Virus record (IMG/VR): IMGVR_UViG_3300014720_000094
Coordinates: 1 to 34,654 of that record
Source of the DNA: a virus
DNA: 34,654 bases
Reading direction: 5' to 3' (one strand)
Shown here in pieces: positions 2-24,446 of the stretch. Positions within the stretch are counted from its first letter, which is position 1. Each line of letters opens with the position of its first letter. The translations under genes and the position numbers were made by a program. The notes beneath the pieces were generated by a model that did no database searches, had not been told where the DNA came from, and saw nothing but the letters and a program-made list of their open reading frames with translations.

Positions 2-868
2 GTTGATAGCACAGTAGGCCGTAGCTATGATCTTATAATATTTGACGAAGCTGCCCTGTCGGAGCATGGTGAGCGTGCTTTTAACGTTGCACTGCGCCCT
101 ACACTAGACAAGCCTGGTGCAAAGGCCATATTTATATCGACGCCACGTGGGCGTCAAAACTGGTTTAGTCAGTTTTATCAGCGTGGCTTTGACCCGCAGT
201 TTCCAGAGTGGATCAGCATACAGGCGGATTATACTGAGAATACTCGCATGAGTGCACAAGATGTGGCAGAAGCTAGGCGTTCAATGCCCAAATCGGAGTT
301 TGAGCAAGAGTACATGGCCAGCTTTACCAGCTACTTGGGTCAGATCTATGAAGGTTTCTTAGCTGAGTATATCTTAGACGAACTACCACCTACAGTACGT
401 GGTGAAGCTTTTGCCGGCTGTGATCCAGGTTATCGTGACGCCACAGCATTTGTTGTGGTAGTTTATGATCCCGCAACAGAGTACTACTGGGTTGTGCATG
501 ACTACTGTGAAGCAGAGCGCAGCACTGCACAGCATAGTGAACATTTTCACAGGATAATTGACAGGCACAGTCCAGAGGTAATTTTTATAGACAGTGCTGC
601 TGCACAATTTTCCAGTGATCTTGCCTATACCTATGACATTTCAACTACCAAAGCTAAAAAAGACGTACTACCTGGTATTGCCTATCTACAAACAATTATA
701 CAGCAAGGTAGGCTGCGTGTACTCAAAAACTGCGAACATACATTAGCTATGTTAGATCAGTATCGCTGGGACGATCGTGAAGGCTTAGTGCGTGAGCGAC
801 CCAAGCATGACAGGCATAGTCACATAGCAGATGCATTACGGTATGCTATATACAGCTATGTGGTATAA
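2..868 (+). CDS. terL: Terminase large subunit, C-terminal part (5' end outside window)
   Basis: This is the ATPase/nuclease motor that packages DNA into the prohead through the portal. The reading frame is open from the left edge, so 288 residues are visible and the Walker A region lies upstream. A Walker B-like LIIFDEAAL lies near residues 11-19 and a coupling-motif-like STPRG near residue 48. The C-terminal RNase H-like nuclease domain shows its expected acidic residues: Asp in CDPGYRDATAF, Asp in VIFIDSAA, and the late Asp in HSHIADALRYAIY. The ATG at 248 is internal and is not the start. A promoter and an HNH gene follow, the usual packaging neighbourhood. The family call is firm. The packaging type (cos or pac) cannot be judged from this fragment. 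Confidence 0.93.
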   Translation, partial: VDSTVGRSYDLIIFDEAALSEHGERAFNVALRPTLDKPGAKAIFISTPRGRQNWFSQFYQRGFDPQFPEWISIQADYTENTRMSAQDVAEARRSMPKSEFEQEYMASFTSYLGQIYEGFLAEYILDELPPTVRGEAFAGCDPGYRDATAFVVVVYDPATEYYWVVHDYCEAERSTAQHSEHFHRIIDRHSPEVIFIDSAAAQFSSDLAYTYDISTTKAKKDVLPGIAYLQTIIQQGRLRVLKNCEHTLAMLDQYRWDDREGLVRERPKHDRHSHIADALRYAIYSYVV

Positions 869-1401: not shown

Positions 1402-2569
1402 CTGGATGGTTGAAAAGCTAAATCCAGCTCAATCAAGAATAGCAGCAGATGAAGGCAGCAGTGTAGAAAGTACACAGCGCGTAGTAACTTACAGAAACGC
1501 TTTTCGTAATCTAGATAGCGTAAACCGATCAATCAATATGGTAGTTAGTGCTTGTAGCTCACTAGACTACGATATTAAAGACAAAGTACATGATGGTGTG
1601 GTTAATGGCATACGTCAAAAAACACTAAACACACTACTTAATTTTCGTCCAAACCCCTATCAAAGCGCACAAGATTTTCGCCGTGAGATATTTAAAGACC
1701 TACTCTTAGACGGCAATGCGTTTATCCATTTTGATGGTACGTTTATGTACCACCTGCCTGCAGATAACGTTGAAATATTAACAGACCCTAAAACGTTTAT
1801 TCGTGGCTATAGATACAATGGTGTAAATGGTGTACCATTTCCTGAGCAGGATGTATTTTACTTTAAAGATATTAACAGTAATAGCATCTATCGCGGAGCT
1901 AGCAGACTTGAAGCATGCTTAGATAATATAGATATACTCTACAGCATGCAAGAGTTTCAGCAAAAGTTTTTTGAAAATGGCACTATTTTTGGCTTGGTGC
2001 TTACTAGCGAGAATACCTTAAGCCCACAGGCTAAGGAAAAAACACTAGCTTACTGGCAGCAGCGATACAACGCTAAAAGTGGTGGACGTAGACCAATTAT
2101 TCTTGATAGCGGCTTAAAGCCATATAAACTACAAGATCAAAAATTTAGCGACCTAGACTTTGACGTGGCAATTAAAACGCACACTGAGCGTATAATGACA
2201 ACCATAGGCGTTCCGCCTATATTACTAATGGGAGGTAATAATGCTAACATTGCCCCTAATTTACGCTTATTTTACATGGAAACAGTATTGCCAATCGTTA
2301 AACTCTATGTTTCCAGCTTGGAGCGATATTTTGGATATGACGTGGAAGCGATAACAAGTAGTGTTAACGCGCTACAGCCAGATATTAGTGAAACAGCAAA
2401 ATATCACAGCACACTAGTTAATGGTGGAATTATTACACCAAATGAAGCTAGACAAGAATTACGGTATCCTAAACTTGAGGGTCAGGATACAATAAGAATA
2501 CCTGCTAATATAGCAGGTTCCGCAGCTGATCCATCGCAAGGTGGTAGGCCTAGTACGACGAGGGAGTAA
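1379..2569 (+). CDS. Portal protein, HK97 family
   Basis: This is the dodecameric ring at one capsid vertex that docks the terminase and later the connector and tail. From the GTG at 1379 the product is 396 residues, a normal length for HK97-type portals. Family-like stretches include LLLDGNAFIHFDG, DVFYFKDIN, IMTTIGVPPILLMGG and the typical late GGIITPNEARQELRYP. The tail (DPSQGGRPSTTRE) is polar and probably disordered. It overlaps the HNH gene by 23 bases and ends one base before the capsid ORF ATG, so translation is probably coupled. The order terminase, HNH, portal, protease/capsid is the HK97 head module. Confidence 0.93.
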   Translation: MALERLRSWMVEKLNPAQSRIAADEGSSVESTQRVVTYRNAFRNLDSVNRSINMVVSACSSLDYDIKDKVHDGVVNGIRQKTLNTLLNFRPNPYQSAQDFRREIFKDLLLDGNAFIHFDGTFMYHLPADNVEILTDPKTFIRGYRYNGVNGVPFPEQDVFYFKDINSNSIYRGASRLEACLDNIDILYSMQEFQQKFFENGTIFGLVLTSENTLSPQAKEKTLAYWQQRYNAKSGGRRPIILDSGLKPYKLQDQKFSDLDFDVAIKTHTERIMTTIGVPPILLMGGNNANIAPNLRLFYMETVLPIVKLYVSSLERYFGYDVEAITSSVNALQPDISETAKYHSTLVNGGIITPNEARQELRYPKLEGQDTIRIPANIAGSAADPSQGGRPSTTRE

Positions 2570-2570
2570 T

Positions 2571-4634
2571 ATGACTAAAAAAATCGATAAATTACTCTAT
2601 TTAAGCAGCAAGTTTACCGCTAGTACAGAAACTGACGATAGCATTTATATTGAAGGATATGCTAGCACAGTAGACCGTGATAGACAAGGTGATGTTATTC
2701 CTATGAAGGCATGGAATGAGGGGTTAAGTAATTACCTTAAAAATCCAATTATACTAGCCTATCACAATCATCAAATGCCTATTGGCAAGATGGTAGAGCA
2801 TAAAGTCACTGATCAAGGATTGTGGGTACGTGCCCAGATTCCTCAGGAAGTAGGTGATGTTTACAAGCTGATTAAAAAGGGTATCTTAAGCGCGTTTAGC
2901 GTAGGATTTAGAGTTCGTGATGCTGATTATGACAGCGCCTCAGAATCTTTTCTTATCAAGGAATTGGAGTTACATGAAATTAGTGTAGTTTCAGTACCAG
3001 CTAATCAAAACACACTATTTAGTTTAGCCAAGGCATTTGATAATGCCACAGAGTTTGAATTATATAAACAGCAATTTGCACCAGCGCCAGTGGAATCAGC
3101 TAAACAGCTTGATACACCAAAAGCAGCAAAAAGCACAACAAAAGAGGAATGGGACATGGATCCAAAAGAGTTAGAAAAGTTACTAGCAGATGCTGCTGCT
3201 AAAGCTGCTGAACAAACTGCTAAAGCCGTATTAGAGGCACAAACAAAGGCTGCTGAAGAGGCACAACGTAAGCTGCAAGATGAAGAAGCCCTACAGGCTA
3301 AAATCAAGGCTGCTGTAAGTGCAGTTACTCCACAAGCACCAGCTGTACAAACAATTGATACTGGTGCAGAGCGTCTACTAAGCGACATTGAAAAGCGCCT
3401 AGAAGATCAAGCTACAGAGCACAGAACAGCCCTAGAGGGTCTAGAGAGTGCTATTAAAGAAAAAGCTAAAGAGCTAGAAGCCCTACAAAACAAGAGTGGC
3501 GAACTAGAAGCACTACAGCGTAGTCGTATGCAATTTGCCGAGCCAAAGGAAATTGATATTGCTTATCTTGACAAAGAAAAGGCAGTTCTTGCCAGCAAGA
3601 TCTTACGCAAGCCAATGGAATATACCAAGTTTGGTAAGCAGCTATTAGAAAAAGCAGCTACATTTGGTGCAGCAGCTCGTGGTCCACGCGATAGCGGCGG
3701 TGCTATCAGTGAAATCTGGGAACAAGAAGTTAGCACAACACTAGAAAGCGAAATGCGTCGTCAGCTAGTTGTTGTTGGTTCAATTCGTCAGATTCCTATG
3801 AGCCAACCTGTAATGCGTATTCCAACAAATCCAGATACAGGCGACGATGCTACATGGATCGTTGGTAGTTCAGCAGCTACTCCAAAAACAGAAGCTACTG
3901 TTTATGGTGCAGCAGCCAGCAGCGGTACAGCTCGTACACATACACTAAAAGAAGTTACTCTACAAGCATACAAGCTTGCTACAAAAGAGTATATTGCTTT
4001 TGAAGAAGACGAGGATAGCCTAATTCCAGTTCTACCACTAGTACGTGATGCACTAAGCCGTCGTATGGCTAAGTCACTAGATCTAGCAATGTTAGCTGGT
4101 GCTGGTAGTGTAAACAGTACACCTATTAAAGGTTTACTAGCACATGACGCAGCTGGCGGCACACCAAACGTTACAATTGCATCGTCAGGCGGTGTTTTTA
4201 AGCTAAAAGTTAGTGATATTATGAGTGCTCGTAAAGCAATGGGTGCCTGGGGCCTAAATCCTAGCGAACTAATTGTTTTTGTAACTACACAAGGTTACTA
4301 TGAGCTATTAGAAGACAGCAACTTCCTAACAGTTGACAAAGTTGGTGATCGTGCTACAATTCTAACAGGTCAGATTGGTAGCATTGGTAATACACCAGTT
4401 GTTGTAAGCGCAAGCTTCCCAGCTATTACTGGTGCAACAGGTGATGCAAGTGCTGTAATTTTCAATCCACGTAACTTCCTAGCAGGACAACATCGTGGTA
4501 TGCGTCTTGACAGCGATGATTTCGTAGTTGAGCAGCGTAGTGTACTAGTAGCTAGTATGCGTGTTGGCATGACAATTCTTTCAGAGAATTTTGCCACAGA
4601 CGGATACAGCACAGTAGCAGTTCGTTACGCATAA
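2571..4634 (+). CDS. Prohead protease - delta/scaffold - major capsid protein fusion (HK97 type)
   Basis: One 687-residue ORF carries two normally separate proteins. Residues ~20-155 are an HK97-type prohead protease (family U35): EGYASTVDRDRQGDVIP, His67 in NHQMPIG, Ser110 in ILSAFSVGF, and the closing ELHEISVVSVPANQNT. Residues ~155-195 form a linker. Residues ~196-330 are an Ala/Glu/Lys-rich coiled coil, as expected for a capsid delta/scaffold domain. The rest is an HK97-fold capsid protein (RQIPMSQPVMRIP, LSRRMAKSLDLAMLAGAG, NFLAGQHRGMRL). The start is ATG 2571 after AGGGAG (2561-2566); the in-frame GTG at 2541 lies inside the portal gene and lacks an SD. A second SD/ATG at 3143-3158 could yield the scaffold-capsid part alone (492 residues). 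Leu codons are mainly CTA and Arg codons CGT, unlike the tail-tip genes. Confidence 0.92.
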   Translation: MTKKIDKLLYLSSKFTASTETDDSIYIEGYASTVDRDRQGDVIPMKAWNEGLSNYLKNPIILAYHNHQMPIGKMVEHKVTDQGLWVRAQIPQEVGDVYKLIKKGILSAFSVGFRVRDADYDSASESFLIKELELHEISVVSVPANQNTLFSLAKAFDNATEFELYKQQFAPAPVESAKQLDTPKAAKSTTKEEWDMDPKELEKLLADAAAKAAEQTAKAVLEAQTKAAEEAQRKLQDEEALQAKIKAAVSAVTPQAPAVQTIDTGAERLLSDIEKRLEDQATEHRTALEGLESAIKEKAKELEALQNKSGELEALQRSRMQFAEPKEIDIAYLDKEKAVLASKILRKPMEYTKFGKQLLEKAATFGAAARGPRDSGGAISEIWEQEVSTTLESEMRRQLVVVGSIRQIPMSQPVMRIPTNPDTGDDATWIVGSSAATPKTEATVYGAAASSGTARTHTLKEVTLQAYKLATKEYIAFEEDEDSLIPVLPLVRDALSRRMAKSLDLAMLAGAGSVNSTPIKGLLAHDAAGGTPNVTIASSGGVFKLKVSDIMSARKAMGAWGLNPSELIVFVTTQGYYELLEDSNFLTVDKVGDRATILTGQIGSIGNTPVVVSASFPAITGATGDASAVIFNPRNFLAGQHRGMRLDSDDFVVEQRSVLVASMRVGMTILSENFATDGYSTVAVRYA
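3143..3158 (+). promoter_or_regulatory. Internal SD and ATG inside the protease-capsid ORF (nested capsid start)
   Basis: AGAGGA (3143-3148) lies seven bases before an in-frame ATG (3156-3158), exactly at the junction between the protease linker and the delta domain. The product would begin MDPKELEKLL and be 492 residues, a normal length for an HK97 capsid protein with delta domain. That use of the site is inferred. Confidence 0.6.
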
Positions 4635-15916: not shown

Positions 15917-16479
15917 GTAGATTAAGTACACTTAGTCCACAAGCAATTAAAGCTATGTATTCTCCGGACTCTGACGATACATTAATTGCTTTGATAACTA
16001 TCTATAATCCTGCTAATAATACAGTTCCCGTTGTTAGGCTAGCCGATAATTTTACAACACATTTTACTAGCCCAGTACCAATAGGACTATCAACAGTTGT
16101 TAATAAACAAACAGATGCAGAAGAAATAATATACGGAGTTATAGGTCCTGGTAACGAAAAATTTATATTTTTACCAATGGGTTTGACTTTGCCCGATGAG
16201 ACTGCAGGACAAAGTCCTAAATGTACTATAACTTTGTTTGATGTAGCAGGATATTTAACACCACTAATAAGAGAAATATCCGATCCACCATTAATAAAAA
16301 TACAATTAGTATTAGCCAGTAATCCTATAAATGTAGAAATTACATTTACAGATTTTTATATGACAAACATATCATATACAAGAGAATCTATTCAAGCTGA
16401 ATTAAATATTATAAATTTGGATAGAGAACCTTTTCCTCAACATAAATTTACACCAGCTTATTTTCCAGGACTATTCTAA
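15913..16479 (+). CDS. DUF1833-type tail protein at the gpL position
   Basis: The 188-residue protein starts MSRLSTLSPQAIKAMYSPDS and has LIALITIYNP, VPVVRLADNF and a C-terminal PAYFPGLF, a pattern I associate with DUF1833 proteins found just before NlpC/P60 genes in phage tail clusters. It probably takes the place of lambda gpL, linking the gpM layer to the central J hub. Unlike gpL it lacks a cysteine cluster (a single Cys, in SPKCTITLF), so no iron-sulphur site is expected. AGAGG lies seven bases before the ATG, and the stop overlaps the next start as TAATG. Confidence is moderate for the family and good for tail-tip location. Confidence 0.7.
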   Translation: MSRLSTLSPQAIKAMYSPDSDDTLIALITIYNPANNTVPVVRLADNFTTHFTSPVPIGLSTVVNKQTDAEEIIYGVIGPGNEKFIFLPMGLTLPDETAGQSPKCTITLFDVAGYLTPLIREISDPPLIKIQLVLASNPINVEITFTDFYMTNISYTRESIQAELNIINLDREPFPQHKFTPAYFPGLF

Positions 16480-19400
16480 TGTGGGCAAATAAATATATAG
16501 GTATACCTTATAAAGATGGCGGAAGAAATGTAGACGGCTTGGATTGCTGGGGATTAGTTCGCCTTGTCTATAAAAATGAATATAACATAGATCTACCTAG
16601 TTTTAATGACGAATATGTTGTTAGTGATAAAGAGAGAATAGTAGATTTAATATCTCAATATAAAGAAGGTTGGCAGATCGAAGAATCTCCAAAAGAAGGC
16701 CATGTTGTATTATTAAAAATATTAGGAAATGATAGACACGTTGGTGTATTAGTAAATGACAAACAGTTTTTGCATGTAAGTTCAAAAAATTTATTTACAA
16801 CAATAGAAAATTTAGATAGTATTCGCTGGAAAAATAGAGTAGCTGGCTTTCATAGTTATAAACCAGAAACTCAAATTATTTTAAGTGGTAGACCACATCC
16901 TTTAAAAACTCAAAATTTTTCGTTTCCTGTTTCTCCAGGTACTAAATTAATAGAAACAGTTAAAATAATAGCAGAGAAATATAATGTTTCGCAGGAGCTA
17001 TTAAAACATTTATTAATTATAGTAAACGGAAAAATTATACACAAAAATGACTGGTCTAGTTATAGTATACAAGAAAATGACAGAATAGAGTACAGAGCTA
17101 GGCTCGCCGATGAGGATGTACTAAGAGTAGTGGGCTTTATTGCTCTAATATGGATTGCACCATATGCTGCAGGATTTATTCAAACTGCAATGGCAACAAG
17201 TCTTACTACTGCTTTTGGAATGTTTACTACAGGTCTGATTATGCCAGCCTGGGGAACTCTAGGTATGGTTCTTACAGGTGGAGTAATGCTTGCTGGTAGT
17301 TATTTAATGAATGCTATTGCACCAGTTAGACCACCAGAGGATAATACAAAAGATCCTGGCATGGCACAGGCACAAATGATTGCCACCGGCACTCAAAATC
17401 CCATTCTTAAGTATGAAACTATACCTATAGTCTTAGGAAAAATGAGAATTACTCCTCCACTAGGTGCACAAAATTTTATAACATATCAAAATGAAATAGA
17501 TACATATTTAAGTTTATTTTTATGCTGGGGTTATGGCCCCCTAGTAATGGATACCGCCAGCATGAGAATTGGTAATTTAGGTATAGATAATTATACTATT
17601 GAGGCTATTGAACATCAAAGCATTGAATTTACAGGTGCATTGACGAACCGAGGTACAAATAATCAAGATAATTTTGATTTAATATATGGAAATGATATTG
17701 CTCAAGTATTTGAAAATGTTGAACTAGAAAATGATTTTCATCCGGACATGACAGGTGTTACTCCTGGAGTTTGGCATGAGCTATCAGCTGATATTGCATC
17801 ATTAGATTCTAGTGATGCCCCATACACGTCTATAGAAATTGCTCTGCATTTTCCAGAAGGACTTAGACGAATAAAAACAAAAGATGAAGATGCTGGAACA
17901 GATTATGATATTGGCAGCTATGGCCCTATTATAGAATTTGAAATAAAATATGGTGGGGGCTCTTGGGGGTCATCGTTTACAAAAACATATAACTTACCTA
18001 AGAAAAAAGATGCATTTACAATTACTGAAAATATAAATATTACTGCCACCAGAGATTCAATAGCTATTAGAGCCAGAAGACTTAATGCTGGCCGAGCAGA
18101 ATATCCTACTACTAACGATAGTGTGTATGCCACTCTGGCAGCTAATTCTGGATATTGTGTACAAGATACTTCTACTTATGGTCCTATTACAGATAGCGAT
18201 GGTTATACATATTATGATAATTATATTGTTACAACTACAACAAGTCATACTAGTCAACTCACGTGTCAAGTGCCAGGATCAGGTAGAAGATGGATTTCAA
18301 ATATTAGCAGCGATAATGAAAATGCTAAAAAATGGCGCTATTGTTTTAAAGTTAACTTATTAAGTTTAACCGCTAGACGTCAACAAAAACCATTTATAGC
18401 TCCTATTAATACAGACATATCTAGAACAGCAATTAGATTAAAAAGTAGCAGGGAAATAAATGGAGCTTTAGAAGGAATAAATGCCATAGTACAAACTAAA
18501 GCAAGAATATGGAATGGTACTGATTGGTCACAGAAAGCTGCAACAAGTAATCCAGCAAGTTTATTTATACACGTATTAACTAGTCCAGCTAACCCTAGAA
18601 GAATACCAGACAATCTTGTGGATATAGCTGCTAGAATTAATTTAGCTGAATTGGCTGAGTGGTATACTTATTGTGAATCACACAACCCTAAATTCCGTTT
18701 TAACGCTTTGGTAAATGGTACCTCTAGCGTATTAGATGTATTAAAGGATATTTGTGCCGCAGGTAGAGCAAGTCCAACGCAAATAGATGGTAAATGGACT
18801 GTTGTTATTGATAGAGCAAGAACGAATATTATACAATACTTTGGACCACATAATAGTTGGGGTTTTGAAAGTACTAGAAATTTGAATAAGATACCTGACG
18901 GGCTTAGAATAACATTTAATAACGAAGAGACACAATATCAACAATCAGAACATATTGTATTTAAAAGTCTAAAAAATAGAAATAATTCGGAATTATATGA
19001 AACTATAAGCTTACCTGGAATTACAAATGTTGATCTAGTAGACGACCATGCACGTTGGCATATTGCTCAAGCTGTTTTACGTAGAGAAATATATACTATA
19101 AATACAGATATGGAGTATTTGGTGTGCAATCGTGGAGACAGAGTTACTGTTTCTCACGATGTACCTATGTGGGGTCTTGGCAGCGGAAGAATAAAGAAAG
19201 TTTTATCTAGTACTTTAATCGAAATAGATGATCCAATTTTAATCGATCCAACAATCAATTATATAATAAGAATAAGAAACTCTAGTTCTGCTGTAGTCAC
19301 AGATCCTAATGCAGGACCTGCCGGAGCAGAATCATTAATTCAAAAATCAGGGTTTACGTACAGTGCTGCAAGTAGAGATGCGGCAGGTGTAGTTACGCTC

Positions 19401-22400
19401 ACAATTTCTAGCACCGACCCTAATCCGTTCAGTGTCGATGATCTTATATCTGTTAGTAGTGGTACTTTGGGCGGATCTGGAGAGCGAATATCGGAAGTTG
19501 GTATAGGTTTTATTAAATATAAAACTACTTACACTACAGCTAGTACTGATAATACACCAGGAACTATAAGTTTAGCAAAAGGCTTATTTAGAAAAATAAC
19601 ATTAGTTACGCCTATATCATTTGCTAGGGAAGGAGACTTATTTTTAGTTGGAAATAGCGTACAAAAAACAAATGATTTAATTGTATTAGGAATAGAAACA
19701 ACTAGTAATAAAAATGGTAGGATAATACTTACAGACTATGCACCTAAAATATTTACTGACTATAAGAATGAATCAGAAAGCTTAGCTTTTGAGACTAATA
19801 TTACATTACCACCGGGATTAGCTGGTTTTGAGCTTAAAGATAGACCAGTTGTAACAGATGTTATAAGTGATGATAGAGTATCAATATTATTATCTAACAA
19901 TGTTTGGAAATATAAATTACGTATATCTTATGCCAATTTTATATTAGATACTATTAATTTAAATACAGCAAATACGGGAGCTAGTCCAAGAGTAATTATA
20001 CAATCAGTAGAATGTGAATATTCAATAGCAGGAGGATCAGGAACCTCTAATGAAAGATCTATAATTGTACCATATTCTCAACTATGTGTAGATATTGATG
20101 ATGTGCAAATAGATGAAGAATATAAGGCTAGATTACGCTATATATCAACTACAGGTATAAAAGGACCTTGGACTCCTACAATTACTGCTCTTCAATTTCC
20201 TCAAATGAAGATTGTAGGAAAGGATCGTAATTATGGCGAATTAGATGATTTAGTAGTATATCATCAAGGAAGATATTTAGATATAACACCTGTTGCAATC
20301 CCAACACCAAAAGATTTTAAACATTATGAAATAAGAACTTGGAAAGATAGTACAGCTACTGGAGATTTTTGGAATAAAACGACGTATGTAGGTACTATAA
20401 CCAAAGGCAGCGATATAATTAATTTAACTAGTACAGATCATGATCATAATCTATTAATTCAAAGAATAGGTAAAACACCTCAAAAAATTACTGGAGTAGG
20501 ATCTTTTGGATGGACAGGAACATTAATATCTCCAATTCCTGCTAAAATAGTAGCTGCTACAGCGACTACTCTTACAATGTCAACAGGTAGCGGAGCCAAT
20601 GCTGTAGAAGGAACTATAACTTTTACACTTGATAAAGAAATTTTAGGTTTAGCAACTAGTCAAGGCACTTACAGACAAGATTTATTACAATTTGAGCGTC
20701 CACGATTAAACCAAGCAGGAGTTGTCTACAGAGTAAATAGCAGAGTAGTATCTGCCGCTAATACTTATAGCCAATTTTCTGGTATACGTAATGTAGTAAT
20801 AGGTAATCTACCTCCAGGGCCAAGCATTGTAAAACCAGGAGCAGGATCTTTTACCCTAGAAGTATCTGATCCATCACTTACCACGCAGAGAATACGTACT
20901 GATACTAGCTCTTTGCGTGTATACATGAGTGATGTTAATAATTTTATACCTAATAATGATTACGCGGAAATAGTAGGTAGTATAACTGGTACCACCTTAA
21001 CAGTAACAGCTATAACAAAAGGCAGGTTAGCTCCTGGAGCAGTATTACAAGGTGCCGGAATAGCGCCCGGATATACTGGATACCAAGGAAATATAGTTTT
21101 AAACAATAGCTTTAATGTTAGCACCGGAGCTCTAGTTACAACAACGTCTAGAATTGTATTAATTAAAGGTTTAAATAGTGGGCCCAGAGGTATACTTAAC
21201 TTAAGGCCTGGACAGTATATAAAAATAGATAGTGGAACTGGTAGTTTTGGTTTAATAGACGGGCAACCAGCTTTGGGAGTAATAGATACTGTAGATAGTA
21301 ATGATCAAATTACTGTACGAATACAAACTAATGGGTTGGTTTCACAAACAACTCCTTCTGCCGGATCAGTTAATTTTAGTATCTCTACAGGCATAACAAG
21401 TTTTTCAGATATAGCGGTTAGTATAATAAGCGGACCAGTAATAAAATTTGGCAGTACACCCGCACCTACTCTTCCAGCTACATATACTCTAAGTGTTAAT
21501 CAAGGTACTTCTATACCTGCTGGAACTTTTATAAGGGCTTTTTCTAACAGAGTTTATGACGCAAAAGCACTTTTAGCGTTTATTAATGATGTGTACCCAG
21601 AAAAAATATTTTACTATAGACATGCACTATTAAGTGAATTGGCCCCACAACCAGATCCAGATTATTTAGAAGACTATAATTATAGCGACCAAGGAGAGGT
21701 AACGGTATCCAGTGCAGGAGAAGCAGTAGATAATACTCCTCCTCCTACACCGTCAGGAATTTCAGTTACAGCAGGTATGGCCCGTATTGTAGTAAAATTT
21801 GAAACTAGACCTGCTTATAACCTAAGTGGAAATCCTGCTACCGGACCTAATACTAGCTCTTCTCATAAAGCTACAGTAATGTACATGCTTCCTAGAAGAA
21901 ACAAAACAGACACATTAACTTTTGAAAATGCAGTGGCAGGAACGTATGGCACACCTATAGTACATTATCTAACAAATGAACAAGAATGGGTTACTAGTGT
22001 TCCAGCTGATCCAGGAACAATCTACTATATATGGTTTAAAAATCTTAGTAAAGCCAATGTACAAAGTTTAGCGGCATTAGGGCCTATGATTGTAGAAACT
22101 GGTGTAGACATAGAAAAGATGTTACATGTATTAACTGGTAAAATAGCTGCTGGACAGTTATATAATAGTTTGGGTAGTAGAATAGATGCAGTTGATAGAG
22201 GTGATAAACCTATAGCTACAAAAGTTGAACAATTAGAGGGACAATATACAGTTAAAATAGATAATGGAGGAAATGTTGCTGGTTATGGCTTATCTAGTAC
22301 TGGTAGTGGTTTACATAATGCCGAAAGTCAATTTGGAGTTCGAGCAGACTATTTTTGGGTTGCTCCAGTAAGTCATGTTAGCAGCACAGAACCCCCACTT

Positions 22401-23756
22401 GCTAATAGATATAAAGGTTATGTATGGGTAGATACTAGTACTGCTGGTACGCAAAATGTTGGAGCAATAACTGGAGTAGATTTTTACTATAATACCTATA
22501 AACCGGATATACATAATAGTACAATATTTCCAGATAATAGCACACTACATTATTGGGAACAATATTCTAGTGAAGATTTTTATAGACGTACCGGATTTAT
22601 ATGGAATACTAGCTTGTGGAGTGATGATACTGATTATGCTCCGCTACATATAGTAGAACAAGCTCTTACTGGAAAAATTTATTACTGGAAATTACCACCG
22701 CCTTCATCTAATCCTTTAGAAGAACCTCCAACCATATATGGACGTCCTCCTTTAAGCAATACAACTTATTGGGCAGAACTGGATCCTAATGTAGGTTTAG
22801 TTGGTAAAACACCTGATAATTTAATTTATAAAGACAAGTGGATACCAAGCAGAGCTTATTCAGTTGGAGATGTAGTTAGAATAGGTATAGAATTTTTTCA
22901 ATGTAAAAAAGCATATGTTCCTAAACCATTAAGTAATGTATCAACTTTATCACTACCTGTACCTGCCGATCCAGGAGGGGCAGAAAGTAGCAAACAAGTT
23001 GTAAAAGATGCATTAGAAAATAGTACAGGTGCTAATACCGGGCATAGATTTAGTTGTGATGTTGTTCCTGGTGTAACCACTCTTGCAGCTAATACGACAG
23101 TATATGCAATAAAAAGCAGTACAGGAACATATAACGATTTTATAGGTTATAGCTATAACCCCCTGGGTACTTTTTATTATATTATGGGAACACCAACACC
23201 TAGTGATACAAAATTTTCACTTAGTACTAGATATGGTGGACCAGGTATTACTACTCAAGCTGGTGGAACAACTAAATATTGGGTTAGAAAATTACCTCCT
23301 CCAGACGAAGACGGGGAGCCATTAAATATTCCCGACGAAGATTTGACAGATCCAGCCAGTCAATTTAAGTGGACTACAGATAAAACTAGAGTAGCATTTC
23401 CATTTATCGTAGTTACCGAGCCTTTAGATGAAACAAATAATAATGGCGTTAGACACCCTACAGGGGTATTTATTGATAATGCTTTTATCAGAAATGCTAG
23501 TATTACTAATGCAAAAATTGCGTATGCTGCTATAGATGATGCTAAAATTAGTTTTCTGTCAGCGGATAAAATAACTACTGGTGTGCTAGACGCTGGTAGA
23601 ATAACAGCAGGATCAATTGATGCAAGTAAAATTTCAACAACATCACTATCGGCTTTAAATGCTAATTTAGGTGTAGTAACTGCTGGAATAGCTAGAAGTT
23701 CAGATGGTCAAATGACAATTGATTTTAATTCAAAATATATTAGAATAGAGACATAG
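16479..23756 (+). CDS. Tail-tip fusion: NlpC/P60 peptidase - ubiquitin-like gpI domain - gpJ hub protein
   Basis: This 2425-residue ORF joins three lambda functions (K, I, J). Residues 1-130 are an NlpC/P60 cysteine peptidase: Cys23 (LDCWGLV), His87 (RHVGVLV) and His99 (FLHV). Residues ~135-206 look like a beta-grasp (ubiquitin-like) domain, as in gpI-type tail assembly proteins. Residues ~216-283 are hydrophobic and Gly/Ala-rich. From ~290 follows the trimeric hub/host-specificity protein J with fibronectin-like regions and its usual end (AFIRNASITNAKI...LSADKITTGVLDAGRI). Several small beta modules are inserted: 19338-19570, 20390-20630, 20925-21550 and 23030-23300. A carbohydrate-binding-like segment (WIPSRAYSVGDVVRIG) is near residue 2120. 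Codons favour TTA and AGA. Peptidase action on peptidoglycan or on the fusion itself is inferred. Confidence 0.85.
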   Translation: MWANKYIGIPYKDGGRNVDGLDCWGLVRLVYKNEYNIDLPSFNDEYVVSDKERIVDLISQYKEGWQIEESPKEGHVVLLKILGNDRHVGVLVNDKQFLHVSSKNLFTTIENLDSIRWKNRVAGFHSYKPETQIILSGRPHPLKTQNFSFPVSPGTKLIETVKIIAEKYNVSQELLKHLLIIVNGKIIHKNDWSSYSIQENDRIEYRARLADEDVLRVVGFIALIWIAPYAAGFIQTAMATSLTTAFGMFTTGLIMPAWGTLGMVLTGGVMLAGSYLMNAIAPVRPPEDNTKDPGMAQAQMIATGTQNPILKYETIPIVLGKMRITPPLGAQNFITYQNEIDTYLSLFLCWGYGPLVMDTASMRIGNLGIDNYTIEAIEHQSIEFTGALTNRGTNNQDNFDLIYGNDIAQVFENVELENDFHPDMTGVTPGVWHELSADIASLDSSDAPYTSIEIALHFPEGLRRIKTKDEDAGTDYDIGSYGPIIEFEIKYGGGSWGSSFTKTYNLPKKKDAFTITENINITATRDSIAIRARRLNAGRAEYPTTNDSVYATLAANSGYCVQDTSTYGPITDSDGYTYYDNYIVTTTTSHTSQLTCQVPGSGRRWISNISSDNENAKKWRYCFKVNLLSLTARRQQKPFIAPINTDISRTAIRLKSSREINGALEGINAIVQTKARIWNGTDWSQKAATSNPASLFIHVLTSPANPRRIPDNLVDIAARINLAELAEWYTYCESHNPKFRFNALVNGTSSVLDVLKDICAAGRASPTQIDGKWTVVIDRARTNIIQYFGPHNSWGFESTRNLNKIPDGLRITFNNEETQYQQSEHIVFKSLKNRNNSELYETISLPGITNVDLVDDHARWHIAQAVLRREIYTINTDMEYLVCNRGDRVTVSHDVPMWGLGSGRIKKVLSSTLIEIDDPILIDPTINYIIRIRNSSSAVVTDPNAGPAGAESLIQKSGFTYSAASRDAAGVVTLTISSTDPNPFSVDDLISVSSGTLGGSGERISEVGIGFIKYKTTYTTASTDNTPGTISLAKGLFRKITLVTPISFAREGDLFLVGNSVQKTNDLIVLGIETTSNKNGRIILTDYAPKIFTDYKNESESLAFETNITLPPGLAGFELKDRPVVTDVISDDRVSILLSNNVWKYKLRISYANFILDTINLNTANTGASPRVIIQSVECEYSIAGGSGTSNERSIIVPYSQLCVDIDDVQIDEEYKARLRYISTTGIKGPWTPTITALQFPQMKIVGKDRNYGELDDLVVYHQGRYLDITPVAIPTPKDFKHYEIRTWKDSTATGDFWNKTTYVGTITKGSDIINLTSTDHDHNLLIQRIGKTPQKITGVGSFGWTGTLISPIPAKIVAATATTLTMSTGSGANAVEGTITFTLDKEILGLATSQGTYRQDLLQFERPRLNQAGVVYRVNSRVVSAANTYSQFSGIRNVVIGNLPPGPSIVKPGAGSFTLEVSDPSLTTQRIRTDTSSLRVYMSDVNNFIPNNDYAEIVGSITGTTLTVTAITKGRLAPGAVLQGAGIAPGYTGYQGNIVLNNSFNVSTGALVTTTSRIVLIKGLNSGPRGILNLRPGQYIKIDSGTGSFGLIDGQPALGVIDTVDSNDQITVRIQTNGLVSQTTPSAGSVNFSISTGITSFSDIAVSIISGPVIKFGSTPAPTLPATYTLSVNQGTSIPAGTFIRAFSNRVYDAKALLAFINDVYPEKIFYYRHALLSELAPQPDPDYLEDYNYSDQGEVTVSSAGEAVDNTPPPTPSGISVTAGMARIVVKFETRPAYNLSGNPATGPNTSSSHKATVMYMLPRRNKTDTLTFENAVAGTYGTPIVHYLTNEQEWVTSVPADPGTIYYIWFKNLSKANVQSLAALGPMIVETGVDIEKMLHVLTGKIAAGQLYNSLGSRIDAVDRGDKPIATKVEQLEGQYTVKIDNGGNVAGYGLSSTGSGLHNAESQFGVRADYFWVAPVSHVSSTEPPLANRYKGYVWVDTSTAGTQNVGAITGVDFYYNTYKPDIHNSTIFPDNSTLHYWEQYSSEDFYRRTGFIWNTSLWSDDTDYAPLHIVEQALTGKIYYWKLPPPSSNPLEEPPTIYGRPPLSNTTYWAELDPNVGLVGKTPDNLIYKDKWIPSRAYSVGDVVRIGIEFFQCKKAYVPKPLSNVSTLSLPVPADPGGAESSKQVVKDALENSTGANTGHRFSCDVVPGVTTLAANTTVYAIKSSTGTYNDFIGYSYNPLGTFYYIMGTPTPSDTKFSLSTRYGGPGITTQAGGTTKYWVRKLPPPDEDGEPLNIPDEDLTDPASQFKWTTDKTRVAFPFIVVTEPLDETNNNGVRHPTGVFIDNAFIRNASITNAKIAYAAIDDAKISFLSADKITTGVLDAGRITAGSIDASKISTTSLSALNANLGVVTAGIARSSDGQMTIDFNSKYIRIET

Positions 23757-23759
23757 TAG

Positions 23760-24446
23760 ATGCTAGGCGAAGAAATCCCAACATACATGTACACTAGATT
23801 AAAAGAAAATGGTAAACTATACCTATCTAATAATCAAGGAAAACCACAAACTAATCTAACATTAGTTGAAAACACAACACTTATACTAATACATAAACCA
23901 AACAACGATGCGTATCAATTAACAGAATTAGAAAGACAGGAAATGAATGAATTAAAATTGCCTACACTGTGTGTAGGCAATTTTAAACGATTAAGCCAAA
24001 TATTTATACCTGATAAATATGCCGAAAATCATCCATATTTAAATAGAATTTATATATGTGGAGTATTTGACTCATTTACTCTAATCGCAGATTATTTTAG
24101 ACGAGAGTGGAATGTTTGGATCTCCGATGATTTAGATCACCCTATGTATACTTATTTAGATAGCAATGGTCAAGGAGTAGATGAGCCAGGAATTTCAGTT
24201 GAGTATGGTTCAGGTTTACAAAAGCACGATATTATTACATTTAGTACTCAAGATGAGTTTGCTGGTCAACCAGATCATATAGCTGTATATTTAGGTAATA
24301 ATAAAATCATGCATCAATATTTAGACAGATTTTCATGTATAGAAGAATTATCTGTTTATATGAAAACAAGAATATTTGCAGTATATAGAGTCCCACAAGT
24401 TTTACGATTATTAGAGTCTAATGGTGATCACGTTACAGTAGGTTAG
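23760..24446 (+). CDS. Second NlpC/P60-like tail protein with Ser at the catalytic Cys position
   Basis: The C-terminal half of this 228-residue protein follows the NlpC/P60 layout: YICGVFDSFTLIADYFRREW, then LQKHDIITFS, then PDHIAVYLGNNKIMHQYLD. The motif normally reads Asp-Cys followed by hydrophobic helix residues; here it reads Asp104-Ser105, while His173 and His185 are kept. Cys100 is five residues away and unlikely to substitute. It may be a non-catalytic structural paralogue of the peptidase domain fused to J, or a Ser variant. Residues 1-75 are not recognised. It lies downstream of J rather than before it, unlike lambda K. A 16-bp perfect inverted repeat (23952-23986) lies inside the gene. 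The SD is weak, so coupling to the J stop four bases upstream is likely. Confidence 0.65.
   Translation: MLGEEIPTYMYTRLKENGKLYLSNNQGKPQTNLTLVENTTLILIHKPNNDAYQLTELERQEMNELKLPTLCVGNFKRLSQIFIPDKYAENHPYLNRIYICGVFDSFTLIADYFRREWNVWISDDLDHPMYTYLDSNGQGVDEPGISVEYGSGLQKHDIITFSTQDEFAGQPDHIAVYLGNNKIMHQYLDRFSCIEELSVYMKTRIFAVYRVPQVLRLLESNGDHVTVG
23952..23986 (+). other. Perfect inverted repeat within the second NlpC/P60-like gene
   Basis: TTAAAATTGCCTACAC (23952-23967) and GTGTAGGCAATTTTAA (23971-23986) form an uninterrupted 16-bp stem with a TGT loop. The shape resembles an intrinsic terminator (G+C core, then TTTTAA) but it lies inside coding sequence. It could attenuate transcription between J and the fibre genes or act on the mRNA. 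Confidence 0.6.

Follow-up and report, generated by a model that had tools for sequence, protein, structure and literature searches.

In the window, that is the whole 34,654-nt stretch of viral DNA analysed, a prohead protease and a major capsid protein are encoded in a single uninterrupted frame, which very probably gives rise to two products, a 687-aa protease-linker-delta-capsid chain upon initiation at 2571 and a 492-aa capsid precursor consisting of delta domain and capsid upon initiation at 3156, that would assemble together and share one cleavage. Comparison with relatives brings out the fusion, a conserved candidate internal ribosome-binding site, the homology of the nested start to the start of free-standing capsid genes and its location at a domain boundary; a conserved in-frame internal ribosome-binding site and start at such a boundary are characteristics of genes of the lambda C/Nu3 type.

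The fused ORF extends from an ATG at 2571 to a stop codon at 4632-4634 (Table 1). Its N-terminal part scores 68.9 bits with the Peptidase_S78 profile (HK97-type prohead protease) against a curated cut-off of 21 and thus belongs to this family, with H65 and S110 invariant across 47 diverse fused proteins (alignment A8). For the capsid part, a family profile gives E values of 1e-89 to 1e-103 with solved capsid proteins of T5 and DT57C (5tjt, 8zvi and 8ho3), and DT57C and T5 capsids are equally the best Foldseek matches of the structural model (E 4e-20). This AlphaFold model, built with 47 sequences (mean pLDDT 69) in place of a discarded one with 8 sequences (pLDDT 40), drops below pLDDT 50 at residues 170-197 and shows a helix from residue 199, which places the nested start at the edge between linker and delta domain. 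As residue 11 of the mature T5 chain 5tjt aligns to residue 379 of the fused protein, cleavage between delta domain and capsid, and with it the mature N-terminus, is expected near residue 369. The internal Shine-Dalgarno sequence (SD) is spaced 7 nt from the in-frame ATG at 3156-3158. The earlier note had described protease and capsid in one frame without a stop, AGAGGA and ATG (3143-3158) at the domain junction and a nested product of 492 residues; these coordinates and lengths are exact, both Pfam domains have been found and the linker of the model ends at the nested Met.

Table 1. Features of the fused protease-capsid gene and its surroundings (positions in the window; residues of the 687-aa protein).
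Feature	Position	Residues	Strand	Basis or remark
Fused ORF: prohead protease, linker, delta (scaffold) domain, HK97-fold major capsid protein	2571..4634		+	687 aa
SD of the full-length (protease-capsid) start, GAGGGAG	2560..2566		+	Sequence; -8.0 kcal/mol; conserved
Peptidase_S78 domain	2622..3023	18-151	+	Pfam PF04586, E 7.3e-19
Predicted RNA hairpin, outer stem GC..UUUGC / GCAAA..GC enclosing an AGCU/AGCU hairpin	3071..3134		+	Consensus fold
Disordered linker between protease and capsid parts	3078..3155	170-195	+	AlphaFold
Internal SD, AGAGGA	3143..3148		+	Core kept in 112/112 relatives, in 3 of them 3 nt further upstream
Nested ORF, capsid precursor	3156..4634		+	492 aa; Met invariant 112/112
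Delta (scaffold) domain, two long helices (199-251, 266-318)	3156..3674, 3' limit approximate		+	Model
Mature capsid subunit, T5 type	3675..4631, start approximate		+	Profile, alignment to T5, Foldseek
Phage_capsid domain		385-671	+	Pfam, E 2e-12

Protease and capsid are not separated by a stop or a change of frame in any of the 112 distinct junction-spanning ORFs of the near clade, collected from viral contigs, and the nested start codon, Met196, is invariant. Codon -4 relative to this start is GAG in 62, AAG in 40, AGG in 7 and GAA in 3 of the ORFs, whereby the three GAA cases read AAG GAA GAA, so that the SD has moved 3 nt upstream. Hence codon -4 ends in G in 109 of 112 ORFs, although GAA (70%) and AAA (60%) are preferred elsewhere in the same frames; the encoded residue undergoes nine or more switches between E, K and R on a tree built without the junction, with G retained at the third base in 69 of 71 representatives. 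The Trp codon before the nested start varies (TTG, TTT), as do the Asp-Pro codons after it (ACT CCA, GAT TCT), with SD and ATG constant. On the other hand, the DPKELE stretch following the nested Met is conserved also on the protein level, which counts against the two-product reading. One relative, L309, has a frameshift in the delta-domain region, possibly a sequencing error, with the internal SD and ATG intact.

Five internal Met codons (74, 196, 320, 410 and 415) are conserved; an SD-like motif precedes codon 196 in all 68 representatives and the others in 0-2 of 68, while the real ORF start carries such a motif in 66 of 68. Of these Met codons, 196 has the least structured RNA around it (-8.9 versus -13 to -16 kcal/mol), and synonymous constraint shows two peaks only, one at the ORF start and the other across codons 166-198. 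In synonymous shuffles of single sequences the internal SD is not significant (p about 0.07-0.6), as the Glu/Lys-rich linker readily yields purine runs, and the case consequently rests on conservation across relatives. As the compared sequences are related and counts are not independent trials, the residue switches on the tree and the occurrence in separate lineages carry more weight.

A search with an alignment of T5-like proteases (A6) yielded 80 further loci, to which eight annotated T5-like phage loci were added; in this wider set 55 loci are fused, 25 have separate genes and 8 are too short at the junction. All 55 fused ORFs carry an SD and an ATG or GTG at the junction, while the linker peptides share no common sequence (for example ILKELK/MDQKEL, IKDKNI/MTLEQM and SKGEKT/VDKDE, the slash marking the nested start). 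In two non-redundant sets, SD and start occur at the junction in 49/50 and 40/40 cases, compared with 0-3/50 and 1-7 of 35-40 (0-18%) for equal windows elsewhere in the same ORFs; the single miss, L051, reads AAAAGGG, which is outside the motif list used. The loci with separate genes are mainly those of cultured T5 phages, where the capsid start, preceded by an SD, usually lies 3-21 nt past the protease stop. The nested Met aligns with the start of free-standing T5-like capsid genes that begin 6-21 nt past the protease stop. A tree of the protease domain nests the fused forms within the T5-like radiation and implies two or more changes of state. The earlier note had looked to relatives for separate versus fused genes and for persistence of SD and ATG wherever the fusion is kept: in cultured T5 phages the two genes are indeed separate and the capsid gene begins at the homologous place, and SD and ATG are conserved in every clade tested. 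This comparative evidence lends strong support to its proposal of a protease-capsid chain together with a nested capsid chain, on the model of lambda C/Nu3.

The genomic setting agrees with a T5-type (Demerecviridae-like) head-tail module, as judged from the pb8-homologous capsid and the T5 gene order from portal to tail terminator. Neighbouring genes encode, by PHROG and Pfam assignment, the C-terminal part of a terminase, portal, head completion protein, T5 p143-type tail completion protein, tail terminator and major tail protein. In all cultured T5-like phages examined, protease and capsid genes are separate, whereas a single ORF is found here and in 112 + 55 relatives. Identity to the closest annotated phages, T5-like ones of Vibrio, Aeromonas and Proteus, is 30-36%. 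Between terminase and portal, an HNH-like gene (phrog_3497, 937-1401) overlaps the mechanical start of the portal ORF 1328-2569, the true start of which is probably located later. Further along the window, 16479-23756 codes for a 2425-aa protein with an NlpC/P60 domain (residues 8-123) joined to tail-tip domains, directly followed by a second NlpC/P60 protein (23760-24446), and an ORF of 1179 aa, open at the contig end (31116-34652), has folded segments interspersed with very long collagen-like GIQGIQG repeats and is probably a tail fibre.

As for the proposed mechanism, both products share the assembly surface, so the fusion chain could be built into the shell alongside the short one, its N-terminal delta and protease parts pointing to the interior, a geometry which suggests that the fusion chain delivers the protease into the prohead. 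The protease would subsequently cut the delta/capsid boundary of all chains, releasing protease and scaffold together, as one cut near residue 369 would free the delta domain alone from short chains and protease plus delta domain from long ones. Initiation in vivo, co-assembly, the cleavage site and an excess of the short product are what we infer for this gene. The arrangement probably originated when adjacent protease and capsid genes of T5 type lost the stop that divided them, with the ribosome-binding site of the capsid gene kept.

That the fusion is an artefact of assembly or sequencing, such as a lost stop or a frameshift, is barely conceivable; cultured T5 phages do have separate genes and the L309 contig carries a frameshift farther downstream, but 112 + 55 distinct ORFs, drawn from many metagenomes, all keep the frame open, and the relatives thereby refute this explanation. 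It is also improbable, if less extremely so, that solely the 687-aa fusion is made, with a protease on every subunit and the internal SD and ATG as a gene relic or by-product of linker composition. The strong full-length SD, the annotation of fused genes as single products in other phages (PMC7302621) and the SD-like runs which Glu/Lys-rich linkers give in about half of the synonymous shuffles would fit with this explanation. A relic would decay, yet SD core and start persist down to about 35% identity, through the switches of residue -4, unrelated linkers, the exchange of ATG for GTG and separate lineages, and synonymous constraint is highest exactly at the internal SD and start.

A more serious question concerns how the ratio of the two products would be set. 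With an SD energy of -8.0 versus -6.0 kcal/mol the full-length start is the stronger one, so that the SD alone would not lead one to expect more of the short product, the excess of capsid over fusion chains that the earlier note had proposed; once local RNA structure (-9.7 for the full-length versus -6.2 kcal/mol for the nested start) is allowed for, the balance tips only slightly towards the nested start. A two-tier hairpin ending 8 nt ahead of the internal SD is predicted by RNAalifold and may keep the ribosome-binding site open, slow ribosomes or take part in mRNA processing. It is accordingly possible, though we would sooner bet against it, that the internal start is used mainly by coupled or reinitiating ribosomes, or on a shorter mRNA whose 5' end arises near the hairpin by cleavage or transcription start, such that the hairpin and not the SD alone sets the ratio. 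The hairpin is predicted in both fused sets, its outer stem forms with a mean probability of 0.91, compared with 0.18 for synonymously shuffled sequences (mean z -1.85, 62 sequences), the upstream region exceeds such shuffles in stability (z -1.68, n=73, and -1.30, n=38, in the two sets, with control regions about 0) and the stem sequences, of which GAGAAGGAACCTTCTC is one example, are unrelated between subclades, as seen in the window and in L280-L359 upstream of the nested start. Against this stands that no compensatory changes are found in the hairpin, with 0 pairs changed on both sides, and that at the separate T5-like junctions the signal is mixed (z +0.3 to -2.8), an inconsistency for which the hairpin as an ancestral trait of those junctions was rejected. 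The deeply conserved TCAGCTAAA is part of the predicted hairpin; as a window-wide motif it was dismissed, with 17 matches (at most one mismatch) versus 15.7 expected.

The nested-start design extends beyond T5-like phages. Pseudomonas phage PAJU2, whose protein is annotated as "prohead protease fused capsid protein", has AGGAGG and an ATG at codon 197, and Escherichia phage JLK-2012 has AAGGA and an ATG at codon 193. A genome scan of prophages of the PAJU2/JLK-2012 type found an SD (AAGGA to AAGGAGG) and an ATG or GTG exactly at the capsid start in 23 of 25 fused cases, with separate genes in several relatives from Psychrobacter, Acinetobacter and Snodgrassella. All six Microbacterium EE phages carry GAGAGGA or AGGAGG and an ATG at codon 161-168, while the protease-capsid fusion of Gordonia EricDab is without a clear nested start. 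Protease-capsid fusions have been described for Microbacterium clusters EE/EL (PMC7302621) and Arthrobacter Powelldog (PMC12760985), with no mention of a nested start in the available text of either paper. In the open-access literature searched, no paper was found that describes a nested capsid start in a protease-capsid fusion; nested two-product genes are already known, and their use inside such fusions appears to be undescribed. Cumulatively, we consider it reasonably probable that protease-capsid fusion with a retained capsid ribosome-binding site is a recurrent design of tailed phages, which evolved in at least two lineages that also have separate-gene relatives (T5-like phages and PAJU2/JLK-type prophages), occurs in Microbacterium EE phages as a third lineage and predominates among the uncultured T5-like phages sampled, with the RNA hairpin ahead of the internal ribosome-binding site helping to determine how many capsid chains carry a protease relative to those without one.

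In the study of capsid assembly it has long been asked how phages limit the number of proteases per prohead. If the capsid start is nested within a fused gene, delivery of the enzyme would be tied to the lattice itself and its dosage governed by a single ratio of initiation. For most chains, annotations that derive capsid size and N-terminus from a fused ORF of this kind are probably wrong. Among cultured phages, PAJU2, Trireme and Efeko carry a fused gene, with the internal start at codon 166 in Trireme.

In phage lambda, the protease gene C contains the nested in-frame product Nu3 expressed from an internal start, and the shared C-terminal part brings the protease chain into assembly. The gene in the window resembles C/Nu3 in being a protease gene with a nested in-frame product from an internal start, but in lambda the nested product is the scaffold and capsid protein E is encoded by a separate gene, whereas here it comprises scaffold and major capsid protein. 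Herpesvirus UL26/UL26.5 likewise combines a protease-scaffold chain with a more abundant nested scaffold of the same C-terminus; there, however, the second product arises from its own transcript and the fusion lacks the capsid protein.

A tripartite capsid gene with a ClpP-type protease is present in Salmonella phage Gifsy-2. Pseudomonas phage MD8 gp5 equally unites protease, scaffold and capsid on one gene as here, with a protease of ClpP type and not Peptidase_S78; the available text of the respective paper, which cites lambda C/Nu3, does not mention a nested start (PMC8508860). The T5 head module, with the protease pb11 and the capsid precursor pb8 (PMC5292684), shares protease type, capsid fold, N-terminal scaffold domain, the gene order portal, protease, capsid, head completion, tail completion and tail terminator, and the place of the capsid start, but has a stop and a 17-nt gap between the two genes (T5_ev219), with a 1-nt overlap to 21 nt in other T5-like phages and neither in the clade of the window. 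PAJU2, JLK-2012 and the Microbacterium EE phages likewise possess one protease and capsid ORF with SD and in-frame start at the junction, although their capsid families, as those of the EL phages and Powelldog, differ from that of the window. As far as sequence comparison can tell, the nested-start design is real, conserved and recurrent, a counterpart of lambda C/Nu3 with the capsid protein itself as the nested product.
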